Of a stretch of DNA of 24,069 nt, positions 12,135 through 23,841 are shown one piece after another (the first letter of the stretch is position 1; each line of letters begins with the position of its first letter). The notes under the pieces were generated by a model, which was not told where the DNA came from, made no database searches, and worked only from the letters and a program-made list of their open reading frames with translations. The stretch lies in the IMG/VR virus record IMGVR_UViG_3300027365_000058, positions 1 to 24,069 of that record. One strand, 5' to 3'. Made by a program: the position numbers and the translations under genes. This DNA is from a virus.

Positions 12135-14870
12135 TCAACCAATGATACCTTTGATAGTGTCCCAGTTCTTTACACCTTCAATGAACAACTTACCCCAAGC
12201 CGAACTACTTTCACCGTCAGTTTTAATGTTCTGAACATCTTTTGCAACAGACGCAATTGCCAAATTAGCAATACGATCTTTACCGCTTTCACCAGTCTTC
12301 CAAGACATCTCTAACAAATCTCGATAAGTCTGACTCTGCTGTGCATATGCAGAAGCTGACAAGTCTGTAGCGTTCTTGGCATTGACAGCATTGGCTGCAT
12401 TAACAGAAGCAGTGTTTGCCGTAGACACTTCAGCCAACAACCTAGCATTAGCTACGTTAATCTCTGTAGACATTTTAGCATTGAAGTCTGCTCTGTCATT
12501 AGCTTCCTGAGCATTGAATTTAATCAACTCGTTGGAAGCATCCATGTTAGCAACAGCTATCTTGTTCTTCTCAGAAGCAGAGAACTGTTGAGCAGTGAGA
12601 GACAGTGTTGCATTAATCTTATCAACTTCGATTGCATTGGTTGCGTTTGTCAACGAGGCAGCATTCTTAGCAGCAGCATCGGACAAAATAGATTGTGCAA
12701 TTTGTTGACTCTGCACCACGGCCATCTGTTGTTTATTGTCTAAGTTTTTAAGATCGGTAGCCAAGAAAGCCTGAGCATTCTGCACAGCGGCTTGTTGACG
12801 ATTGTTCAAGTTTGTCATGTCCATTGTAGCAATGGTGGCAGCGTTGGCAATTGCTGTTTGCTGTGCAGCATTCAAGTTGGAAATACCAATGTCCTTCATC
12901 AACTGTGAATTGTTCAATGCGGCAGTTTGTGCAGCAGTGAAGGTCATATTGTTATTCTCAGCAATACGTGTGGAGTTCAACACAGCAGCTTGTTGCTTGT
13001 TGTCTAATATCTTACCCTGACGGGCAGCTTCAATCTGAGCATTAGCCAAAGCAGTTTGCTGACGATTGGAGGCATTAGAGATATCAACCTGCACAGCCAT
13101 AGAACTGTTATGCAAAGCAGCCTGTTGAATGTTGTTAAGGTTGATGTTGGCTTGTTCAGCATAACGAGCAGCATTAACTACAGCGGCTTGCTGTTGGTTA
13201 GACAAGTTCTGTCCCTGCAACGTAGCTCTAATCTGCGTGTTAGCCAACATTGTCTGTTGCATATTAGACAGGTTCTGACTCTGAAGAGCGAACGAGTTGG
13301 TGGCATTAGTCAGACGAGCTTGCTGTTCATTAGACAGGTTCTGCAAAGACAACCCTTGCTGAGCAGCAGCATTAGCCAATGATACTTGCTGGCGATTGTT
13401 AAGGTTCTGCATACCCATCTGCTGGAACACTTGAGCGTCCTGTGCAGCAATAGGCAGGGCACTCTCCATAGCAGCTTGGAAGATGGCTGTAGCAGCCATA
13501 GAGCTACCACCCAAACCCCGAGAGGCCATAGCAGCGTTAGCGGCACGAATAGCGCCAGCAGCCCATGCTGGAGTTGCACCATCGTTAAAGCTATTCATCA
13601 ACTGTGTAAGTTGACCCTGCACTGTAGACTGTGCATCCACATTACCCTGTGCAGCAGCAGCCAGAGTACCATCATCAACTGTAAACTTCTCAAGACGAGC
13701 AGCAACAACTGTAGCGTCAGGTGCAAGCCCTTCAGCGGTGATGGCCGTAGCCTGTGCCATGTCTGCTTCAGCAATCTGTGCAGGTCTGACCAACTCATTA
13801 GCTTGCACAACACCTGTAGCCGCCTGTACAGCGGTGGGGGCAGCAGCTTGTGCAGCTTCAGCAGTAACAGCAGGCATATCCGTTTGAGCAGTGACGAGTT
13901 CACCAGCTTCTGTAGTTCTAGTACCAGCAACAACAGGAGCGATGAATTCAGCACCAACCTCTTGGGCAGTGGCTAATGCGCCCTGCGACAATGTGCCTTG
14001 CTGTGCAGCCACCTGTGCTTGATCAGAGACAGTGCCTTGTGCAGCGCTCAAACCACCTGTTGTAACCTCTCTACCCCAATCCATATCATCGGGCATTGGA
14101 ATGCTTGTGGGTTGACCAAGCTGCATCTTCGACACATTAAGGGCGTCATCTAGGTCAATCTTCCCGTCACGATTCCAGTCATACTTCTTCAAAGCCTCTG
14201 GTGTTGCTGGTGTTAAACCAACCACTATCTTCAACGCATCTTTTGCGTCAGATTCTTGGGGAAGAGGATTCTTCTTAGTAATACCTTCGTAAATAGATTT
14301 AATGTCCGCTGTTGTGGCAGTGGTTGTGGCGTTTGTTGTCTTAACAGCGGTGGGGGCAGTGACACCCTGTGCTACTGCGGCAGGAGCAGCAGTGGCGGTA
14401 GTGGTCGGACCAGCAAGAGTGGCCTGTGCTGTCATACCGGGGGCCATTGCAGTTTGTGCTGCCGTATAACCGGGAGCAGTTGTCATCGAAGGTGCGTTAG
14501 GTGAAGCGCCTGTGATGGCGCTAAGGTCTGTTGTGGTACTACTACCCGGCTCTATTGGTGAAGGTGGTCCTACGAAAGCTTGCCGTGCAGGTGGTGCTGA
14601 AGGGTCTACAAAATCGGATTGTGATGGAGACCGGGGAAGTACATATCCTGCTGGTAAAACATCTCCACCAACTTGATACTTCTTCACCGGAGCCTTAGCG
14701 ACAATACCACCCTTAGCCATGCGTGTAGCAAACTTGTCTGTAATGGTGGCATACTTCATACCCAATGCTGGTGAGCTATTGAGGAAGTCGTCGAAGCCCT
14801 GCATAGGGCCGTCATAACCAAGTTTACGGGCTACGATTTCTTTTTGTTTTGCTGTAAAGCTTTCAGCCAT
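12135..14870 (-). CDS. Putative internal virion protein with 22-residue helical repeats and a dockerin-like calcium loop, 911 aa
   Basis: Start ATG 14870 has a strong AGGA with the same GGAAAACATATGGC context as the tail-fibre gene. Residues 5-50 form an N-terminal segment (KEIVARKLGYDGPMQGFDDF) leading to MAKGGIV at 51-57. Residues about 80-220 are a low-complexity Ala/Pro/Thr linker. D231-W-N-R-D-G-K-I-D-L-D-D242 is a complete EF-hand/dockerin-type loop (ligand positions 1, 3, 5, 9 and 12). Residues about 260-430 are Ala/Gln-rich. From N489 onward at least eleven consecutive units of exactly 22 residues follow the pattern N-L-x-N-x-Q-Q-x-A-(L/V)-x-N. No enzyme motif is visible. The role is inferred as an internal, long helical virion protein. 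Confidence 0.75.
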   Translation of the reverse strand: MAESFTAKQKEIVARKLGYDGPMQGFDDFLNSSPALGMKYATITDKFATRMAKGGIVAKAPVKKYQVGGDVLPAGYVLPRSPSQSDFVDPSAPPARQAFVGPPSPIEPGSSTTTDLSAITGASPNAPSMTTAPGYTAAQTAMAPGMTAQATLAGPTTTATAAPAAVAQGVTAPTAVKTTNATTTATTADIKSIYEGITKKNPLPQESDAKDALKIVVGLTPATPEALKKYDWNRDGKIDLDDALNVSKMQLGQPTSIPMPDDMDWGREVTTGGLSAAQGTVSDQAQVAAQQGTLSQGALATAQEVGAEFIAPVVAGTRTTEAGELVTAQTDMPAVTAEAAQAAAPTAVQAATGVVQANELVRPAQIAEADMAQATAITAEGLAPDATVVAARLEKFTVDDGTLAAAAQGNVDAQSTVQGQLTQLMNSFNDGATPAWAAGAIRAANAAMASRGLGGSSMAATAIFQAAMESALPIAAQDAQVFQQMGMQNLNNRQQVSLANAAAQQGLSLQNLSNEQQARLTNATNSFALQSQNLSNMQQTMLANTQIRATLQGQNLSNQQQAAVVNAARYAEQANINLNNIQQAALHNSSMAVQVDISNASNRQQTALANAQIEAARQGKILDNKQQAAVLNSTRIAENNNMTFTAAQTAALNNSQLMKDIGISNLNAAQQTAIANAATIATMDMTNLNNRQQAAVQNAQAFLATDLKNLDNKQQMAVVQSQQIAQSILSDAAAKNAASLTNATNAIEVDKINATLSLTAQQFSASEKNKIAVANMDASNELIKFNAQEANDRADFNAKMSTEINVANARLLAEVSTANTASVNAANAVNAKNATDLSASAYAQQSQTYRDLLEMSWKTGESGKDRIANLAIASVAKDVQNIKTDGESSSAWGKLFIEGVKNWDTIKGIIG
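12681..13406 (-). repeat. Eleven tandem 22-residue (66-nt) repeats inside the 911-aa protein
   Basis: Residues 489-730 divide into eleven back-to-back units of exactly 22 residues with no insertions. Conserved positions are N1-L2-x-N4-x-Q6-Q7-x-A9-(L/V/I)10-x-N12, as in NLNNRQQVSLAN and NLSNEQQARLTN. Units 6 to 8 are the most divergent (unit 8 begins TFTAAQ). A weaker twelfth unit may follow. The pattern suits a Gln/Asn-rich helical solenoid or coiled coil. Confidence 0.92.
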
Positions 14871-17136: not shown

Positions 17137-17622
17137 TTAAGATTTGGCGTAAGCGCCGTGATACAAAGAGCGTGCTTCTGCGGCAAACAAACCAGCCAAC
17201 TCCAAGTCTTTGAAGTATTGCTGAACAACAGTCTTGCCGTTCTTCATTACACGCACAACCCATGCTTTACTTTTTCTGTGCCAAGACACACCGGGATAAC
17301 CTGATGTATTGCTTGCCAAGGCGTTGCGGTTGCACTGGTTCTCGCTGCGTGTAGCTGGTCGTAGATTCTCAATGCGGTTATCAGCACGGTCGCCGTTGAT
17401 GTGGTCAACCTCTGGAGGCAGATAGCCGTAGTGCAGCATGAAGATCAAACGGTGCGACTTGTGAACCTTGCCACGCCATGTGATGTGACGATAGCCCGTC
17501 TTGTGGATTGAACCAGCAGGTTTGTCCATCATGTGCTGTTTGTTTGGATGGCTTACGCCTTTCCAGTACAAGTACCCATCAAGGTACGCAAAGCAGTCTG
17601 TTACGTCTTGTTGAGTAATCAT
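17137..17622 (-). CDS. HNH homing endonuclease with C-terminal AP2 domain, 161 aa
   Basis: This is a free-standing mobile endonuclease. The HNH core is at about 54-95: HKSHRLIF with H57, then PPEVDHINGDRADNR with D73-H74 and N82, then IENLRPAT. It is followed by an AP2-type DNA-binding domain at about 106-150 (TSGYPGVSWHRKSKAWVVRV, then YFKDLELAGLFAAEA). ATG 17622 lies 1 nt after the tail-fibre stop; a TTG at 17631 is an alternative, and no good ribosome-binding site precedes either. It sits between the fibre gene and the 99-aa gene in an otherwise coupled unit, consistent with a later insertion. There is no sign of an intron or intein around it. Confidence 0.92.
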   Translation of the reverse strand: MITQQDVTDCFAYLDGYLYWKGVSHPNKQHMMDKPAGSIHKTGYRHITWRGKVHKSHRLIFMLHYGYLPPEVDHINGDRADNRIENLRPATRSENQCNRNALASNTSGYPGVSWHRKSKAWVVRVMKNGKTVVQQYFKDLELAGLFAAEARSLYHGAYAKS

Positions 17623-17623
17623 G

Positions 17624-19339
17624 TTAAGCAACCATTAAAGCGCCAGCAAGAACATACAAATCACCTGCTGCCAAACCCGCAGAGGATGTGGGCAGGTTTT
17701 GAATATTGACTCTAGTGGTGGTGGTTGAGTGATTCCACTTGACAGTAAATCCGTTGGATGCACCAGAAATTTGTGCGCCAAAAATATCTCTGTCAGCACC
17801 AGACGCAACTGTTGCGTTAATTCTGAATGAGGTTGTTGTATTGCCAGCGACAAGGTTTCCATCAGAAGTTAGGGTTAACGCCTGAGTGAAGCTAATAGCG
17901 TCACCTGCTGTGCCGGAGGGGGCGGTAGACCAAATATGTCTGCCCACAGCGGATTCGTATAGCGTTGCTTCTTGGCTGCTGACTTTGTATCTAAATGCGT
18001 CTCCAGATGAGGTGTAGTAGACATTTGAGCCTAAGTACACTCCAGCAGTGCGTAATGTTGAACCTCCAAACAAAGACCCATTTCCAGCAATGTCAAAAGA
18101 AACGCCAGTAAAACTCCAAGCACTCGGAGTAACCCCCAAGCCGAGGTTGCCGCCGTTGGGCTGAAGAATTAAATCTTTGTACCCAGTGCCGTTGTGTACG
18201 GCTTGAATGTATCCGGTGTTTGCAGTGGTGTTGTAACCAACGTGTAGTTGCTTGCCAGTTGCAACAGACGCCTCTCCAATAATTAACTGTGGGGTAAAAT
18301 AATCGGCGCTTGCTGCGGTTACTTGTAACTTAGACGCTGGCGAACTCGTCCCAATACCCAGACCTGTGCTGGTCAGGCGCATTTGTTCGGCAGCATTGGC
18401 CCCAAAAATCAATGCACTGCTTGGCTCCCAATTCCACAAATATGCTTCAGACCCAGTTCCGTTAATCCTGAGCAGCAAACCATCAGTTGCGCCTGTGCCC
18501 GTGGTTGTAGTGGTGAGTTTGAAGTCAGAATCACCAGCGTTGTTGACTCCGAGAACAGAACCTGTAAACGTTAGCGCAGACCCAGTGGTCAGGACTTTGG
18601 AGCCGTTGAGGTAGGCCACGCCGTTGGCTGTGCCGCCTGAGAGGGTAGTTGCACCGGACAGTGTAAGCGCTTCAGCCGTGATGGTGCCAGTTAGAGTTGG
18701 TGCAGCAGACATGACAACGTTGCCCGTGCCTGTGATGGCGTTGCTCACAAGCCCTTTAGAGCCGTCAGAGAACACAGCACGAGAAGCTGTCAACGAAGAC
18801 ACAATAGGTTGTGCTGTAAATGTTGCAACGCCTGTAACACCCAATGTACCGGAAAGTGTAGCGTTCTCACCACCAACAGTACCAGTGAGTGTTGGCGAAG
18901 TTGACATGACAACGTTGCCTGTGCCAGTAATTGCATTACTAACCAGACCTTTAGAACCATCGGTGAACACAGCGCGGCTGGCTGTGAGTGAAGACAACAC
19001 AGGCTGTGCAGTCAATGTAGCCACACCAGTGACAGCCAATGTGCCACCAATCGAGCCATTACCAGCCAAGAACAAGTCTTTGAACTTCAACGAGCCAGAG
19101 CCAAGATCAACAGTGTTGGTGGTCTTTGGAGTGATAGCAGCAGCACCAACTACCACGTCCTGTGTTGGACCCAACACAAGAATGGGAGCGCCTTCACCAG
19201 TGGTACCGTCATGGTTGTGACCAGTGGAGCTATTGAATGCTGCCTGAATACCATCGAACTCGTTGTCAAGGTCGGTGGCATTAATGATGTTGCCATCAGC
19301 AATGTTGTTAGTGGTGTCTGTACGGGTATAGCCTGCCAT
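17624..19339 (-). CDS. Tail fibre protein, 571 aa
   Basis: ATG 19339 has a strong AAGGA (19346-19350) with 6-nt spacing. The N-terminus MAGYTRTDTTNNIADGNIIN, then DLDNEFDGIQAAFNSSTGHN, is a familiar virion-attachment-type start of podovirus fibres; H41 and H43 form an HxH in GHNHDG. The middle carries a tandem 65-residue duplication (102-166 and 167-231). Further on are beta-repeat motifs such as LTSTGLGIGTSSPASKL and LILQPNGGNLGLGVTP, typical of trimeric fibre shafts. The C-terminus ends in NLPTSSAGLAAGDLYVLAG, a common fibre-tip closure. No S74 intramolecular chaperone is visible. It recognises the host surface; the specificity is unknown. Confidence 0.85.
   Translation of the reverse strand: MAGYTRTDTTNNIADGNIINATDLDNEFDGIQAAFNSSTGHNHDGTTGEGAPILVLGPTQDVVVGAAAITPKTTNTVDLGSGSLKFKDLFLAGNGSIGGTLAVTGVATLTAQPVLSSLTASRAVFTDGSKGLVSNAITGTGNVVMSTSPTLTGTVGGENATLSGTLGVTGVATFTAQPIVSSLTASRAVFSDGSKGLVSNAITGTGNVVMSAAPTLTGTITAEALTLSGATTLSGGTANGVAYLNGSKVLTTGSALTFTGSVLGVNNAGDSDFKLTTTTTGTGATDGLLLRINGTGSEAYLWNWEPSSALIFGANAAEQMRLTSTGLGIGTSSPASKLQVTAASADYFTPQLIIGEASVATGKQLHVGYNTTANTGYIQAVHNGTGYKDLILQPNGGNLGLGVTPSAWSFTGVSFDIAGNGSLFGGSTLRTAGVYLGSNVYYTSSGDAFRYKVSSQEATLYESAVGRHIWSTAPSGTAGDAISFTQALTLTSDGNLVAGNTTTSFRINATVASGADRDIFGAQISGASNGFTVKWNHSTTTTRVNIQNLPTSSAGLAAGDLYVLAGALMVA
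18647..19036 (-). repeat. Tandem duplication of a 65-residue block in the tail fibre
   Basis: Residues 102-166 and 167-231 of the fibre are two direct copies, each starting VTGVAT and containing SSLTASRAVF, DGSKGLVSNAITGTGNVVMS and PTLTGT. Over the first 45 aligned residues I count about four differences. The DNA of the two copies differs at many third codon positions, so the duplication is not recent. Confidence 0.9.
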
Positions 19340-19370: not shown

Positions 19371-21350
19371 TTAGCGTCTGTCGTGTGTGCTATATTCAAT
19401 GGTTGCAGCATCAAGAGAGAACGGTGGATTCTGTCCATTAGAAACAAACTGAATCGAAACACTAAAGCCTGAACCAATTAGTTGTGTCTCAAACTGTTTA
19501 GTCAGCTTATTACCATACACCGTAGTGCCATACTTAGCACCACTGTTACCATAAAAACCTACAGTGCTTGTCTCGTTTGATAACAAAATGGTGGCAGGCT
19601 GAATAGACCCTGCGTTGTCGAAGTCAAGCTTCAAGTTAACAGAGGTGGTGACACCCCCTTGTGGGTCTGTATAAAGCACCATCTTGTAGAACGTCTTACG
19701 CACACGAGGATCATTGATGTAAACAAAAGGTGTAGCAAATGAAGCAACGATGTTATCACCATCAAAGCTATTACCACTCTCCATCTGATAGACGTATCCA
19801 TCAATGTGAGCAAACACCAGTGTCTCTGTCTGATTGACATAGTCACTGTCGCAGACATAGGCTTTGATACCAACTGTCTCGGCCCACGCCATAGTGCCTG
19901 TATCATTACCAACAGTTTGTGTACCGATGATACCTTTAGCGTTTGATGATGTAACACTGCTGTTATATCCCAACAAACGGTATTGGCTTTTCTGCTTAAT
20001 GACACAGCTTGCGAATGACGAGCTAGAAGCAATGAGGCTTGTCATCTCTTCCTGAATAGGCTTAGACACCACACCCAAGTTGAAGTCACCAACACGGTCT
20101 GTAGCGCTAAGCAGACGCAATCCTTCAGGACCGAGGAAGATGACATCACCACCAATTTCCTCAACAGTGTCAGAAGCAACACAACCTACGTTACGTGTAA
20201 TAGGCTGCAATACAAAGTCTTGTAAGGTGTTACCTGTCAACTGACTAATTGTTTTATCGGTGAAGATGATGAGGCTTTCACGGAACACAATGATTGCTGT
20301 AATGGCTCCACCAACATTGATGACACCAGAACCATTGGCAGCAGAGAAGTCTGAATCTGTGTATGGTGCAGTGAAGACGATGGTTTCACCCTTAGCAAAG
20401 AACATCTGATTCTTGTGATAGACAACAAACTCAGCGCCAACTACGTCAGACGGTGCAGACGACAACACTGTGAATGTTGTACCGTTCCATGTGAAGGGGA
20501 AGTTGTAGCTGTCAACACCCATAACCTTGTCCACACCAGCAAGTCGATATTTAGCCACACGCAGCTTAAGACCGTTAGCGCGACTAACAGATCGCCAAGT
20601 GATAGCAGCGTTATCGGCTGGACTAGACGCTAAAGCAGGATAGATACTAATGGTGGCTGCTGTGGATGTAACAGTTGGCACAGCCAACACCGTATATACC
20701 AAAGCAACTCCAGCAATGGAGAAAGTGTCACCGATCTGTGGAACACTGGTCAATCCGTCAACAGCCAATGTCGCACCTGTCTGAGAGCCACCATTGACCA
20801 ACACAGTACCGTATGAGGGCTTATTGATTTTGGTGTAGCCTGAGCCAGTGGTGGAATATATGTCACCGTTTCTATAGGCCAACACAGTGTCGTCCCAAGC
20901 AACAACACCCTTGATGAGTCCTTGATGGCTGGTAAAGGTGATGACTGCTTTATCGGCAGGGCTGGATGCTAACGATGTTGTAAGGGTTAGTGTCGCTTGC
21001 TTATATGTACTGTTATAGCTGACACCAGCAGTGGTAATTGTGTAGGTGCCTATGACACCAGCGATGGTGAATGTATCACCGACAACTGGTGCAGCAAACA
21101 AGTTGGAGACAAGCAATGTTGTACCTGTTTGGCTTCCACCCTGCACAAGAGGCTCACCGTAGGCTGGCACAAAAGAGCTTGAGTATTTGTCAAAGCCTTC
21201 GATACGACGATAGCCACCATCCACTGAAGGCTCAAAGTTCTTCAGCAGTCGTGCGCTACCGGGTGCTTGAGTGCCATGCTGTAAAGGTGACAGGTTTGAT
21301 ACCAGTCCTCCACGAAACTCAAAAGGATATGTCTGCCATCCGTCAGCCAT
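19371..21350 (-). CDS. Tail nozzle / tail-tubular-B-like protein, 659 aa
   Basis: The ATG overlaps the stop of the adaptor-like gene (TAATG). The N-terminus WQTYPFEFRGGLVSNLSPLQ, then APGSARLLKNFEPSVDGGYR, followed by strand-rich segments (GVVAWDDTVLAYRNGDIYST, MGVDSYNFPFTWNGTTF, YHKNQMFFAKG, IVFRESLIIFTDKTISQL, DVIFLGPEGLRLLS) looks like the beta-propeller-type platform of short-tail nozzles. A domain of about 72 residues is inserted twice (65-139 and 181-252). Position after the adaptor-like gene and before the fibre fits a tail-tube or nozzle role, analogous to T7 gp12. The assignment rests on pattern and order, not on a decisive motif. Confidence 0.7.
   Translation of the reverse strand: MADGWQTYPFEFRGGLVSNLSPLQHGTQAPGSARLLKNFEPSVDGGYRRIEGFDKYSSSFVPAYGEPLVQGGSQTGTTLLVSNLFAAPVVGDTFTIAGVIGTYTITTAGVSYNSTYKQATLTLTTSLASSPADKAVITFTSHQGLIKGVVAWDDTVLAYRNGDIYSTTGSGYTKINKPSYGTVLVNGGSQTGATLAVDGLTSVPQIGDTFSIAGVALVYTVLAVPTVTSTAATISIYPALASSPADNAAITWRSVSRANGLKLRVAKYRLAGVDKVMGVDSYNFPFTWNGTTFTVLSSAPSDVVGAEFVVYHKNQMFFAKGETIVFTAPYTDSDFSAANGSGVINVGGAITAIIVFRESLIIFTDKTISQLTGNTLQDFVLQPITRNVGCVASDTVEEIGGDVIFLGPEGLRLLSATDRVGDFNLGVVSKPIQEEMTSLIASSSSFASCVIKQKSQYRLLGYNSSVTSSNAKGIIGTQTVGNDTGTMAWAETVGIKAYVCDSDYVNQTETLVFAHIDGYVYQMESGNSFDGDNIVASFATPFVYINDPRVRKTFYKMVLYTDPQGGVTTSVNLKLDFDNAGSIQPATILLSNETSTVGFYGNSGAKYGTTVYGNKLTKQFETQLIGSGFSVSIQFVSNGQNPPFSLDAATIEYSTHDRR
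20595..21158 (-). repeat. Two copies of an inserted domain in the nozzle-like protein
   Basis: Residues 65-139 and 181-252 share GGSQTG-x-TL-x-V, then P-x-(V/I)-GDTF-(T/S)-IAGV, a Tyr-Thr strand, and LASSPAD-x-A-x-ITF/W. They are separated by about 40 residues of propeller-like sequence that begins LIKGVVAWDD. This is a dispersed duplication rather than a tandem one. Confidence 0.88.
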
Positions 21351-22072
21351 TACTTGACCCTTTCACCAAAGGTCGAGAACATTCCTCGATTGATAGCGGT
21401 GGAACGCATGTAGCTGACACGATTGACCAGCATTGTTCGCATACGCTTGATGCCTTCTTCAAACTTATTCTTAGCTAAGTTGGCAGCTTGTTCATTGCTA
21501 CGAAACATGTATGCGTGATACATAGCACCGTCAATGAGAACATGCTTGAAACGTTCAGGGACAGCAGGGACATCTGTGTCGTTGAGAAGGTCTACAGGAA
21601 CTCGGTAGTACTCATACACCATTTCATAGGTTTGATCAGGAGCAGGAACAACCAACCACTCCAAGCTAGGAGCATGAACAATGTTCTTGGGGACAGTGAG
21701 CTTTGATGTATCGTTTGAGTATTCTTGATCTACAGATCGTTCAAGGTAGTCTTCATACTGCATGATGGTCAGCTTGACTGTGTCATTACCGAGTGTGCTG
21801 TCAGCCTTAATGCGGAAAGTGTCGAAGTCAATGGTAGATGCGTCAGACGGGAAAGCATAACGAGTGATACCAATCGACAACGTATCTTCAGCAATCACAT
21901 GATTGAAAGGCCAGTCTTGACCAGCATCATAAACATCACGCAGCGCAGCATTGACAGAGTCTTTAACTTGCGAATAGAAACCAGTGGCAGTGTCAAAGTT
22001 TGCAGAAGTCAGTTCAACTTCGTTAAGTCGTCTGTTCACATCATTGACCAACCCAATGTAGTCGTATGCCAT
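21350..22072 (-). CDS. Head-tail adaptor-like / tail tubular A-like protein, 240 aa
   Basis: The ATG lies 1 nt after the stop of the 105-aa gene, with AAGGA upstream. The product begins MAYDYIGLVNDVNRRLNEVE, continues with a helical stretch containing SQVKDSVNAALRDVYDAGQDW, then strand-rich sequence (RYAFPSDASTIDFDTFRI, EWLVVPAPDQTYEMVYEYYR), and ends with helices (FKHVLIDGAMYHAYMFR, NLAKNKFEEGIKRMRTM). This helix-strand-helix layout with a paired C-terminal helix is that of podovirus adaptor or tail tubular A proteins. Its neighbour, the nozzle-like gene, supports the call. No catalytic motif is expected. Confidence 0.62.
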   Translation of the reverse strand: MAYDYIGLVNDVNRRLNEVELTSANFDTATGFYSQVKDSVNAALRDVYDAGQDWPFNHVIAEDTLSIGITRYAFPSDASTIDFDTFRIKADSTLGNDTVKLTIMQYEDYLERSVDQEYSNDTSKLTVPKNIVHAPSLEWLVVPAPDQTYEMVYEYYRVPVDLLNDTDVPAVPERFKHVLIDGAMYHAYMFRSNEQAANLAKNKFEEGIKRMRTMLVNRVSYMRSTAINRGMFSTFGERVK

Positions 22073-22073
22073 A

Positions 22074-22391
22074 TCATTGTTCCTTAATCTTCAAACGCAC
22101 AACACGTTCGGCAACACTGCCTGTGCTGTCAGCCATACGGCATGTGAACTTGTAGTCGTAGTTGTCAGTACCGAGTCCAAGATTGATTGTGGCTACACCA
22201 CCGCTGATGGTTTGTGCAACGTTCTGAATACCGTTGACAGTAGAGCCAGCAGTAATCGTAGTAGCTACACCACTGGCATTATCAACGAACCATGTGATTG
22301 AACTAATCGTTGCACCATTGAGAAACCTAGACCAGTCAATGCTGTAGTCTAGTGTTTCATCTTTGTCCTTTGAAGGCCATTTAAACGACAT
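22074..22391 (-). CDS. Ig-like phage structural protein, 105 aa
   Basis: ATG 22391 has AGAGGA upstream. The product begins FKWPSKDKDETLDYSIDWSR and continues FLNGATISSITWFVDN, followed by short strands (TTITAGSTV, GGVATINLGL) and NYDYKFTCRMADSTGSVAER. The W/P-S-K-D-x-D-E-x-L-D-Y-x-I-DWS start and the Y-x-x-x-C-R-x-x-x-S end are familiar from small beta-sandwich proteins of phage head-tail or fibre attachment. The exact role (adaptor, fibre anchor or decoration) is not clear. It sits just before the adaptor-like gene. Confidence 0.66.
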   Translation of the reverse strand: MSFKWPSKDKDETLDYSIDWSRFLNGATISSITWFVDNASGVATTITAGSTVNGIQNVAQTISGGVATINLGLGTDNYDYKFTCRMADSTGSVAERVVRLKIKEQ

Positions 22392-22410: not shown

Positions 22411-23385
22411 TTAAGCCACCATTGCTGATCGGTCAGACGAGCTAGGCTTTCTATACGTGTACACTTTTCTATCTTCGCTCGACACATGTATAGAACGTGT
22501 CGATGGTGTAGAAACTCTATCAACATATACTGTTCTGTCTTGCGCTGCTACAACCATTGTCCTGTCGCTACTACTATTACGTCTGCCAACACTGACAGTT
22601 CTACGTCTATCGTACAGAGCAGCAATTGCGTTGTAGTTGAAGACGACAGTAGTTATACCAACAACACCGACAACACCAACAGCAAAAACCCCGTCAAAGG
22701 TTGGTCTAGCATTGTCTGAGACAGTGACAGAGCCAACATCGGCTGCACCACCAACACCAATTAATGTATAAACATTATCGGCTGCAACAACTACACTACC
22801 CAACAAAACCTGTGCAGCAATACCAGACAAAGAAGTGTTGGCTTTTGCGACAACAACCATATCACCAACAGCACCTGTAGCAGCAATACCATCTACAGGA
22901 ATACGGTTGATTGATCGAACGTCAACCACACCAATAGAGAAGGAAGCTTCAACACCAGTGACGTCTGTGTTGGCATCAGCAGCTACGGTGAGCGAGTCAA
23001 CGAAACCTGTAGCACTGACACCAGAAAGAAGTGTTGTCGATTTAGCAACAACTGTTGTTGTACCGACAACACCTGTAGCAGCAACACCATCAACCAGAGT
23101 TGTGCAACCTAAGCTGAACGACACATTATCATTCAACAAAGCAGAGGCTTGAACACCTGTGATGTTTGTAACAGCTACACCAACAACACCTACACTGCCT
23201 ACAATGGCAGGACTAACTAAGCTTACAACAACATGATTGGCATCACCTGTAATGACAACACCACTGTCTGATGTAGCAACACCAGCTACACCATCAGGTG
23301 TATAGGCTACATTGCTAATGCCATAACGAGCGACACCATAGGTGCCTATTCCGTATATAGCGCCAGAGCGTACAGTTGTTGCCAT
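22411..23385 (-). CDS. Repeat-rich phage structural-type protein, 324 aa
   Basis: The product has a Gly/Tyr-rich start (GAIYGIGTYGVARYGISN), a Val/Ala/Gly-rich core of tandem 22-residue units (residues 98-251, with a 23-residue unit before), and a basic Ser/Arg-rich tail (259-324). Core units start x-x-G-(V/I)-x-A, as in VDGVAATGVVG, LSGVSATGFVD and VDGIAATGAVG, and look like a beta solenoid or stacked beta strands. The tail repeats DRT/DRK elements also with a 22-residue period (D283 to D305, D274 to T296 to D318). AGG precedes the ATG. The location suggests a virion component such as a decoration or fibre-like protein; this is inference only. Confidence 0.65.
   Translation of the reverse strand: MATTVRSGAIYGIGTYGVARYGISNVAYTPDGVAGVATSDSGVVITGDANHVVVSLVSPAIVGSVGVVGVAVTNITGVQASALLNDNVSFSLGCTTLVDGVAATGVVGTTTVVAKSTTLLSGVSATGFVDSLTVAADANTDVTGVEASFSIGVVDVRSINRIPVDGIAATGAVGDMVVVAKANTSLSGIAAQVLLGSVVVAADNVYTLIGVGGAADVGSVTVSDNARPTFDGVFAVGVVGVVGITTVVFNYNAIAALYDRRRTVSVGRRNSSSDRTMVVAAQDRTVYVDRVSTPSTRSIHVSSEDRKVYTYRKPSSSDRSAMVA
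22633..23094 (-). repeat. Seven tandem 22-residue beta-type repeats in the 324-aa protein
   Basis: Starting at V98, units begin at residues 98, 120, 142, 164, 186, 208 and 230, each 22 residues without gaps, with the consensus hydrophobic-x-G-V-x-A-x-x-x-(V/L/I)-G-x-x-x-V-V-A. A related 23-residue unit precedes them at 75. The basic C-terminal tail keeps the same 22-residue period with a different motif (DRT...DRS). Confidence 0.88.
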
Positions 23386-23397
23386 TTGTACCGCCTA

Positions 23398-23841
23398 TTA
23401 AGCGATACGGATGATGGCGTTGGAAGCGTCTGCTACAGGGAACTGCACAACAAAGTCACCGTTGGTCGATGTTTTGTCACCACCAAAAGAGATGACAGCA
23501 ACAGCGTTGGTTGTACTTGAACCACCGTCAGTGGTGGTGTTATAGATGAGAGCGCCAGCGGCTGTGATGGTGGCGGCAGAGAATGTAGCATCAGCAAAGT
23601 CAATGAAGGCTGTGGTGCCGCTACTGGTGGGGTCAATGTTTGTCAATGCAATACCACCTGCGGTGTACCCTGTGCCAACAACTTCGTTACTGGTAGTGTA
23701 GTTGGTAGTGGACGCACCAAGTGTCGCAGATGATGTGTACAAAGCAAGTTTAAAAGTGTGACCGCTAGTGGTATTGAAGTCGTGCTTACGCTCCAACAAT
23801 TCTTTCTTGAAGCTGGTGCAAAGTGCGGAGGTGATAGCCAT
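23398..23841 (-). CDS. Conserved phage structural-type protein, 147 aa
   Basis: ATG 23841 has TAGGA with about 7-nt spacing. The product begins MAITSALCTSFKKELLERKH, continues DFNTTSGHTFKLALYTSSAT with several Ser/Thr-rich strands (TNYTTSNEVVGTGYTAGGIA, FIDFADATFSAATITAAGAL), and ends VISFGGDKTSTNGDFVVQFP followed by VADASNAIIRIA. This whole pattern is familiar from many uncultured tailed phages, where it sits next to capsid or tail genes and carries no firm function. It is likely a virion protein such as a decoration or neck component. Confidence 0.75.
   Translation of the reverse strand: MAITSALCTSFKKELLERKHDFNTTSGHTFKLALYTSSATLGASTTNYTTSNEVVGTGYTAGGIALTNIDPTSSGTTAFIDFADATFSAATITAAGALIYNTTTDGGSSTTNAVAVISFGGDKTSTNGDFVVQFPVADASNAIIRIA

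Follow-up and report, generated by a model that had tools for sequence, protein, structure and literature searches.

The window, by which we mean the whole stretch of DNA that was analysed, is the 24069-base record of a marine virus of bacteria. Genes for a 147-aa phrog_644 protein, a 324-aa repeat protein, a 105-aa adaptor homologue, an adaptor of the SU10 type, and larger proteins follow each other in this order on the minus strand. We propose that the 324-aa protein acts as the rope in a tail fibre built like a chain; its parts and its immediate neighbours are located as follows.

22411..23385, minus strand: the ORF of the 324-aa repeat protein, whose proposed role as a fibre rope rests on its period, its relatives, and its position between bead-like and adaptor genes.
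23293..23385, minus strand: N-terminal cap (aa 1-31) with a YGxGxYGxxxYG motif, recognised by eye; similar [YW]G ladders open many relatives.
22636..23292, minus strand: core (aa 32-250), in which the clear 22-residue repeats comprise aa 86-250 (22636-23130).
22603..22635, minus strand: junction (aa 251-261, YNAIAALYDRR), delimited by sequence and by the AlphaFold2 model, where it forms a short helix.
22414..22602, minus strand: arginine-ladder tail (aa 262-324), proposed adaptor anchor, with R at 262, 275, 284, 297, 306, and 319 (steps of 13, 9, 13, 9, and 13).
23398..23841, minus strand: 147-aa phrog_644 protein (6.7e-23), proposed bead (fibre subunit), whose model matches the fold of 8jou_a.
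22074..22391, minus strand: 105-aa protein homologous to gp77, the fibre-tail adaptor of GP4 (PF23148, E 4.3e-14; 8jou_D profile, E 5.2e-05).
21350..22072, minus strand: 240-aa SU10-type tail adaptor (PF24175, E 9.6e-21).

The original prediction concerned residues 98-324 of the 324-aa protein (22414-23094) and held that a single 22-residue period runs through two different motifs. The period is borne out by BLOSUM62 autocorrelation against 500 shuffles, in which the whole protein reaches z 8.4 at lag 22 and z 7.1 at lag 44, values attained by none of the shuffles at any tested lag. The same lag emerges separately in the core (residues 86-250; z 7.6, 0/500 shuffles) and in the tail (residues 251-324; z 6.4, equalled at any lag by 5 of the 500 shuffles), and residues 1-85 have no significant period by this test. 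The core repeats, which are inexact (identity at lag 22 is 29%), are marked, at the predicted positions, by V98, L120, V142, V164, L186, L208, and F230, each located two residues before a G(V/I). The tail likewise keeps the predicted spacing of 22 residues in two series (D274, T296, D318 and D283, D305), whose members are each followed by an arginine, and its R-x-h-x-V motifs alternate in steps of 13, 9, 13, 9, and 13 residues. The arginine positions in the window were read by eye, and close relatives share the 13/9 steps. The distance from the core markers to the tail markers is exactly 176 residues (8 x 22); absent a structure, however, core and tail being "in phase" has no defined meaning, because the markers differ (V/L/F versus D/T) and residue 252 is N.

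A further 22-residue repeat, which the original prediction had noted as matching the period of the core, is indeed present in a 911-aa protein of the window.

12681-13406, minus strand: about eleven repeats of the form NLxNxQQxAL, each of 22 residues, in the 911-aa protein (aa about 489-730), detected by autocorrelation.

Lag 22 reaches z 11.6 in residues 481-740 of this protein. Because lag 11 is also significant over its whole length and its sequence type, which is unlike that of the rope, suggests 11-residue helical repeats, these repeats are likely unrelated to the rope and the shared period is likely a coincidence. Among the tail genes, a 164-aa ORF (17137-17631, minus strand) by eye resembles an HNH homing endonuclease; at loci L129 and L132, the ORF next after the bead gene, which it slightly overlaps, is HNH-like and 196 aa long.

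The ORF of the 324-aa protein is conserved in viral contigs, where we found 21 relatives with best-segment identities of 60-89%. Searches with the 324-aa protein gave nothing significant in Pfam and PHROGs and no match among PDB sequences, and tblastn in isolated phages returned one partial match, to DSL-LC04, that covers 32% of the query. Among the papers listed by literature searches, we found none that describes this repeat protein, although such listings cannot prove absence. A motif resembling YGxxxYGxxxYG occurs in the N-terminal region of the window protein and also at L200, L208, and L224, i.e., in ropes beside both of the bead types compared below, and WG variants are present elsewhere; the motif is possibly a distal cap.

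The genes on either side of the repeat gene point to a tail fibre. With 53.2 bits against PF23148 (cut-off 27), the 105-aa protein is an adaptor of the gp77 type. The model of the 147-aa protein (pLDDT 87.1, from 32 sequences) matches the fibre I subunit of phage GP4 (8jou_a) with Z 8.2 over 114 of 136 residues and rmsd 3.2, a score near the caution limit of the structure-comparison tool (Z 8). Two T4-type baseplate proteins rank above it (Z about 12), the phage matches listed otherwise come from baseplates, tail tips, connectors, arms, and fibres, and A511 gp105 (6hhk_A; Z 5.7, 106 residues) and a segment of the phi812 arm (Z 5.0) are among the lower ones. A Foldseek search with the same model yielded no significant PDB match and no 8JOU chain among the best 50 of 63 rows. 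In a Pfam search, the 147-aa protein does not match PF23140, the family of gp80, at E 1, and profile comparisons between the bead and gp80 were not significant with either shallow or deeper alignments (probability 6% in one of them). Judged from its model, the proposed bead is like gp80 in fold and place; it is set apart from the gp80 family, because its sequence does not place it in PF23140. The repeat gene of the window thus lies between a bead-like gene and an adaptor gene, as in a fibre I system of the GP4 type.

The GP4 structure described by Zheng et al. in 2023 is said to present fibre I as five gp80 dimers that are joined by a long "rope protein" and sit on a 15-fold adaptor. The PDB entry 8JOU, entitled "Fiber I and fiber-tail-adaptor of phage GP4", contains ten gp80 chains and three gp77 chains. 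A preprint on DEV mentions a 15:12 mismatch for GP4, and the paper on the GP4 capsid does not mention gp77-gp80. Two relatives of GP4, BcepMigl (9.1e-44) and BcepIL02 (2.2e-33), encode homologues of gp80 (PF23140). In BcepIL02, the gp80 homologue is followed by a repeat protein and directly thereafter by the gp77 homologue; in BcepMigl, a pectin-lyase-like gene is located between the repeat protein and the gp77 homologue. The top lag of the repeat protein is 20 in both cases, clearly so in BcepIL02 (z 7.7, 0/400 shuffles) and weakly in BcepMigl (z 3.4, 26/400 shuffles), and that of BcepIL02 ends in R-x-L-x-V motifs spaced by 9. Counted by eye, the BcepIL02 protein (gp56) has about eleven 20-residue units; set against the ten gp80 chains of 8JOU, this number would agree with one unit for each bead subunit, as far as a by-eye count in a relative of GP4 can be compared.

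The association of period and bead type was surveyed in the ORFs downstream of bead genes, taken from part of the viral contigs found and from isolated phages. Single-linkage clustering at 35% identity, after removal of the last 66 residues, gave 38 clusters, three of which were too short. Beside gp80-type beads, 15 of 24 clusters have a significant core lag, which is 20 in twelve of them and 8, 18, and 23 in one each. Beside phrog_644 beads, the lag is significant in 6 of 11 clusters: 22 in three, 20 in one (CRP-207), 24 in one (two Gordonia phages), and 9, with 20 as the second lag, in one (CRP-345). The three clusters at 22 include the 35-member lineage of the window and MJing1, which by eye has an ordinary tail-fibre repeat, and the ropes beside phrog_644 beads are not independent, because most of them form one lineage. 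No significant core period was detected in the remaining clusters (9/24 gp80-type and 5/11 phrog_644-type; 14/35 in all). By majority, periods of 20 and 22 go with bead type, and true exceptions exist. As a strict rule, the notion that the bead family alone fixes the period is rejected by CRP-207 (20), the Gordonia phages (24), and L099, which has a core of 23 and whose relative L100 has a phrog_644 bead.

Other loci depart from the two bead types. At L075 (922-1500), no phrog_644 or gp80 bead was found; the place of the bead is taken by a 192-aa protein, perhaps a third bead type, and the next protein, of 1078 aa, has an arginine tail of identical type. Seven loci (L085, L086, L088, L089, L090, L092, and L097) have a rope and an adaptor and no recognised bead in the flank examined. 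In L089 and L097, a repetitive, fibre-like ORF of >1100 aa is located directly upstream of the rope.

The tails are of two types, which differ in their linkage to the adaptor gene. They were compared in 86 unique proteins, 52 beside phrog_644 and 34 beside gp80, with four or more W or Y defining an aromatic ladder, three or more motifs with enough flank defining an arginine ladder, and 2.5 kb downstream as the range considered for the adaptor gene. Aromatic ladders occur in 15 proteins and have a step of 11 at all nine phrog_644 loci and of 10 at all six gp80 loci; both sets contain proteins closely related to each other (several among the nine, two among the six). For each bead type, the aromatic step is half of the majority core period, so that a period shared by two motifs is part of a wider pattern. 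For none of the 15 aromatic-ladder proteins do the 2.5 kb downstream contain a gp77-like gene. By contrast, such a gene is present within this distance of all 26 arginine-ladder proteins (19 phrog_644, many of them from one clade, and 7 gp80, from several host genera). The other 44 proteins, which include ORFs that are not ropes, have a gp77-like gene nearby in 14 cases, and most of these 14 carry no more than two arginine motifs by pattern; the four at L187, L190, L193, and L197 have a single arginine motif at most. In this sample, an arginine ladder therefore implies an adaptor, whereas an adaptor does not imply a ladder.

Core and tail appear to be distinct modules and not a single continuous structure. 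Within the clade of the window, the core unit of 22 and the tail unit of 13+9 do share the same length. In the relatives, however, the tail does not stay in the 22-residue phase. Seven proteins of L085-L093 combine a core of 22 with tail steps of 19 or of 10 and 9, followed by 15; L074 has a core lag of 20 and tail steps of 13, 9, and 22; L099, with its core of 23, has tail steps of 13, 9, 11, 9, and 13; and BcepIL02 has a core of 20 versus tail steps of 9 and 9. In CRP-207, a core of 20 is accompanied by a tail step of 20 (by eye 11+9) and then one of 12. For L075, lag 20 emerges in the second half of the protein, and the top lag of L076 is 15. The step of 9 in arginine tails is nearly constant across the relatives, and it is the longer step that varies. 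In other clades, the unit of the arginine tail does not track that of the core (22/19, 20/22, 23/mixed). The predicted fold of the window protein also breaks between the two parts, with residues 256-313 and 315-324 at pLDDT below 50 and no strand. A drifting tail and a broken fold are the two results that the original prediction itself had named as decisive against a single continuous lattice with the tail wrapping on, and this part of it is not supported; the occurrence of one period over two motifs stands, and we agree that the period is probably structural.

Changes in length, which count in favour of the rope, occur separately in core and tail. Close pairs (95 pairs) differ in length mostly by whole units, which are 22s in the core and 22s or 19s in the tail. 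Core gaps of 66 separate L090 from L092 and L125 from L126, in each case as two gaps that sum to 66. In the clade with the 19-residue unit, comparison of L086 with L092 and L093 reveals core changes of 44, 66, and 176 and a tail loss of 19, and in the clade with the 22-residue unit, tails have lost 22 (L064/L073) or 44 (L058/L069) residues. Exceptions to whole units are L007/L017, which differ by 68, and L067/L072, where a difference of 66 is joined by a further 20 at the N-terminus. In all pairwise comparisons among 61 clade members, which are not independent, 1089 of 1759 gaps of five or more residues are within 2 of a multiple of 22, versus a share of about 23% expected from even gap lengths.

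The whole 22s by which the tails of the window clade vary would also agree with an alternative in which the bead chain is bound by the core and the tail alike; the shared 22 would then reflect one external lattice, and the tail would not be the anchor. The same is true of the aromatic ladders, which, according to bead type, step by half of 22 or half of 20, and of CRP-207, where core and tail step coincide at 20. We nevertheless consider this alternative rather doubtful, because the arginine unit is untied from the core in the other clades listed above, including BcepIL02, and because the adaptor gene accompanies every arginine ladder and none of the aromatic ones.

The AlphaFold2 prediction for the 324-aa protein (23 sequences) has a mean pLDDT of 56, and the five models spread from 37 to 56. 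The core is solenoid-like, with strands at steps of about 11 residues and a pLDDT of about 59-75; the tail has no strands and a pLDDT below 50. Among the fold families listed, the best match of the core is the beta-helix of HxuA (Z 15.2, 202 residues, rmsd 3.2). With Foldseek, the model has no significant match in the PDB and two matches at E 0.001 or better in a viral library, an uncharacterised 324-aa protein and a 450-aa "glycine-rich domain-containing" protein. Rope-position proteins likewise had no significant match among PDB sequences.

Strand spacing and beta-helix matches make a solenoid core a serious rival to the rope. The core would then be a self-standing beta-solenoid with 22 residues per coil, forming the shaft of a short tail fibre or spike that is tethered to the adaptor by the tail, and the 147-aa protein would be a separate fibre part. 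This is unlikely in our judgement, given the intermediate pLDDT values, the spread of the five models, and the Foldseek result in the PDB. Moreover, a beta-solenoid rises by 4.8 A per coil, and about 10 coils would make only a stub of about 5 nm. AlphaFold2 also tends to build unrealistic solenoids from perfect repeats, according to a study (PMC11795689), a bias that may apply here only in part, because the repeats are imperfect. A solenoid, as suggested by the original prediction, is retained as a rival model of the core; its continuation into the tail is not supported, the tail being unstructured in the model and its unit drifting in relatives.

The evidence for rope-position proteins in virions is mixed. 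BcepIL02 gp56 is annotated as virion-associated. JC1 gp54 is absent from the list of virion proteins, in the portion of the source available, in which gp53 and gp55 are present, and phiM5 gp18 is without the proteome note carried by gp17. Together with POI1126, whose rope-position protein also lacks virion evidence, these cases would suit a protein that acts outside the fibre, as a chaperone of fibre assembly or as a decoration protein of the head. So would the assignment of the repeat proteins of BcepIL02 and BcepMigl to phrog_19041, a "virion structural protein" family filed under head and packaging. The annotation of BcepIL02 gp56 and the linkage of the tail to the adaptor argue against such a role, which we regard as improbable.

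The explanation that we favour, with a confidence somewhat above even, is that a chain-like tail fibre of the GP4 type has the 324-aa protein as its rope, with the core threading the beads and the tail anchoring the rope to the adaptor. The period, the gene order, the adaptor homology, the fold match of the bead, and the linkage between tail type and adaptor gene were observed; the identity of the protein as rope, the binding of its units to beads and of its tail to the adaptor, and its presence in the virion are what we infer. Several results count against this explanation: the bead sequence falls outside PF23140, the period varies within a bead family, 14 of 35 clusters have no significant core period, gp77-like genes are also near 14 of the 44 proteins with neither ladder, seven loci combine a rope and an adaptor with no recognised bead in the flank examined, and the virion evidence is mixed. 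The weak lag of 20 in BcepMigl lowers our confidence slightly as well. In this mechanism, beads of the 147-aa protein would be strung on the rope, and each core unit of roughly 22 residues, comprising two strand-like halves of about 11, would dock on a bead, with one strand-pair unit per bead subunit or per dimer. If the units dock in this manner, the repeat length would follow the spacing of the bead subunits, and the number of units would follow the number of beads. The C-terminal arginine ladder would be a separate module that fixes the rope to a ring of the 105-aa fibre-tail adaptors.

More tentatively, and as a possibility that we would not call probable, many short-tailed phages may have adjustable fibres of beads and rope, in which the bead sets the repeat (20, 22, or 24) and the unit count sets the length. 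An interchangeable C-terminal ladder would state the attachment, with arginine directing the rope to the gp77 ring and aromatic residues directing it to further beads at half the period. If this is true, the length of a fibre could be read from the sequence as the unit count, and a search for the matching period might identify the string in bead chains like the garland of Milano.

Chains of small beads are also known from the A511 gp105 chain on the BW3 string, a published precedent for the rope, and from the garlands of Milano and 7-7-1, whose dimeric beads may have a fold similar to that of the proposed bead of the window. In the account of A511 (PMC10811340), the dimers are beads on a string that is an extended chain, and in that of the Milano garland, the nature of the string is given as not known. 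These systems differ from the window in that they belong to the baseplates of contractile tails, with a string that is part of a wedge protein, and the fold match to A511 gp105 is the weaker one (Z 5.7).

By the 105-aa protein, the nearest isolated phages are the Roseobacter phages CRP-603, CRP-207, and CRP-345, which are tentatively classed as HMO-2011-type in a published description (PMC9038755). They resemble the window in the matching order of bead, rope-like, and adaptor genes, and their rope-like proteins have an FxxEA junction and arginine motifs (one by pattern in CRP-603). Unlike in the window, extra genes are located between bead and rope in CRP-603 (one) and CRP-207 (four). CRP-345 (L026, 7079-7998) also differs from the window, in that rope core and arginine tail are encoded by two ORFs with a one-base overlap (stop-start), an arrangement that would suit separate production of the tail module or its translation by reinitiation.

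The closest comparison is fibre I of GP4 (8JOU), with which the window shares a homologous adaptor, a bead of similar fold, and the order of bead, repeat protein, and adaptor found in the GP4 relatives BcepIL02 and BcepMigl. It differs in its bead, which by sequence is phrog_644 and not PF23140, in its repeat of 22 rather than 20 residues, and in its tail steps of 13 and 9, where BcepIL02 has 9 and 9.
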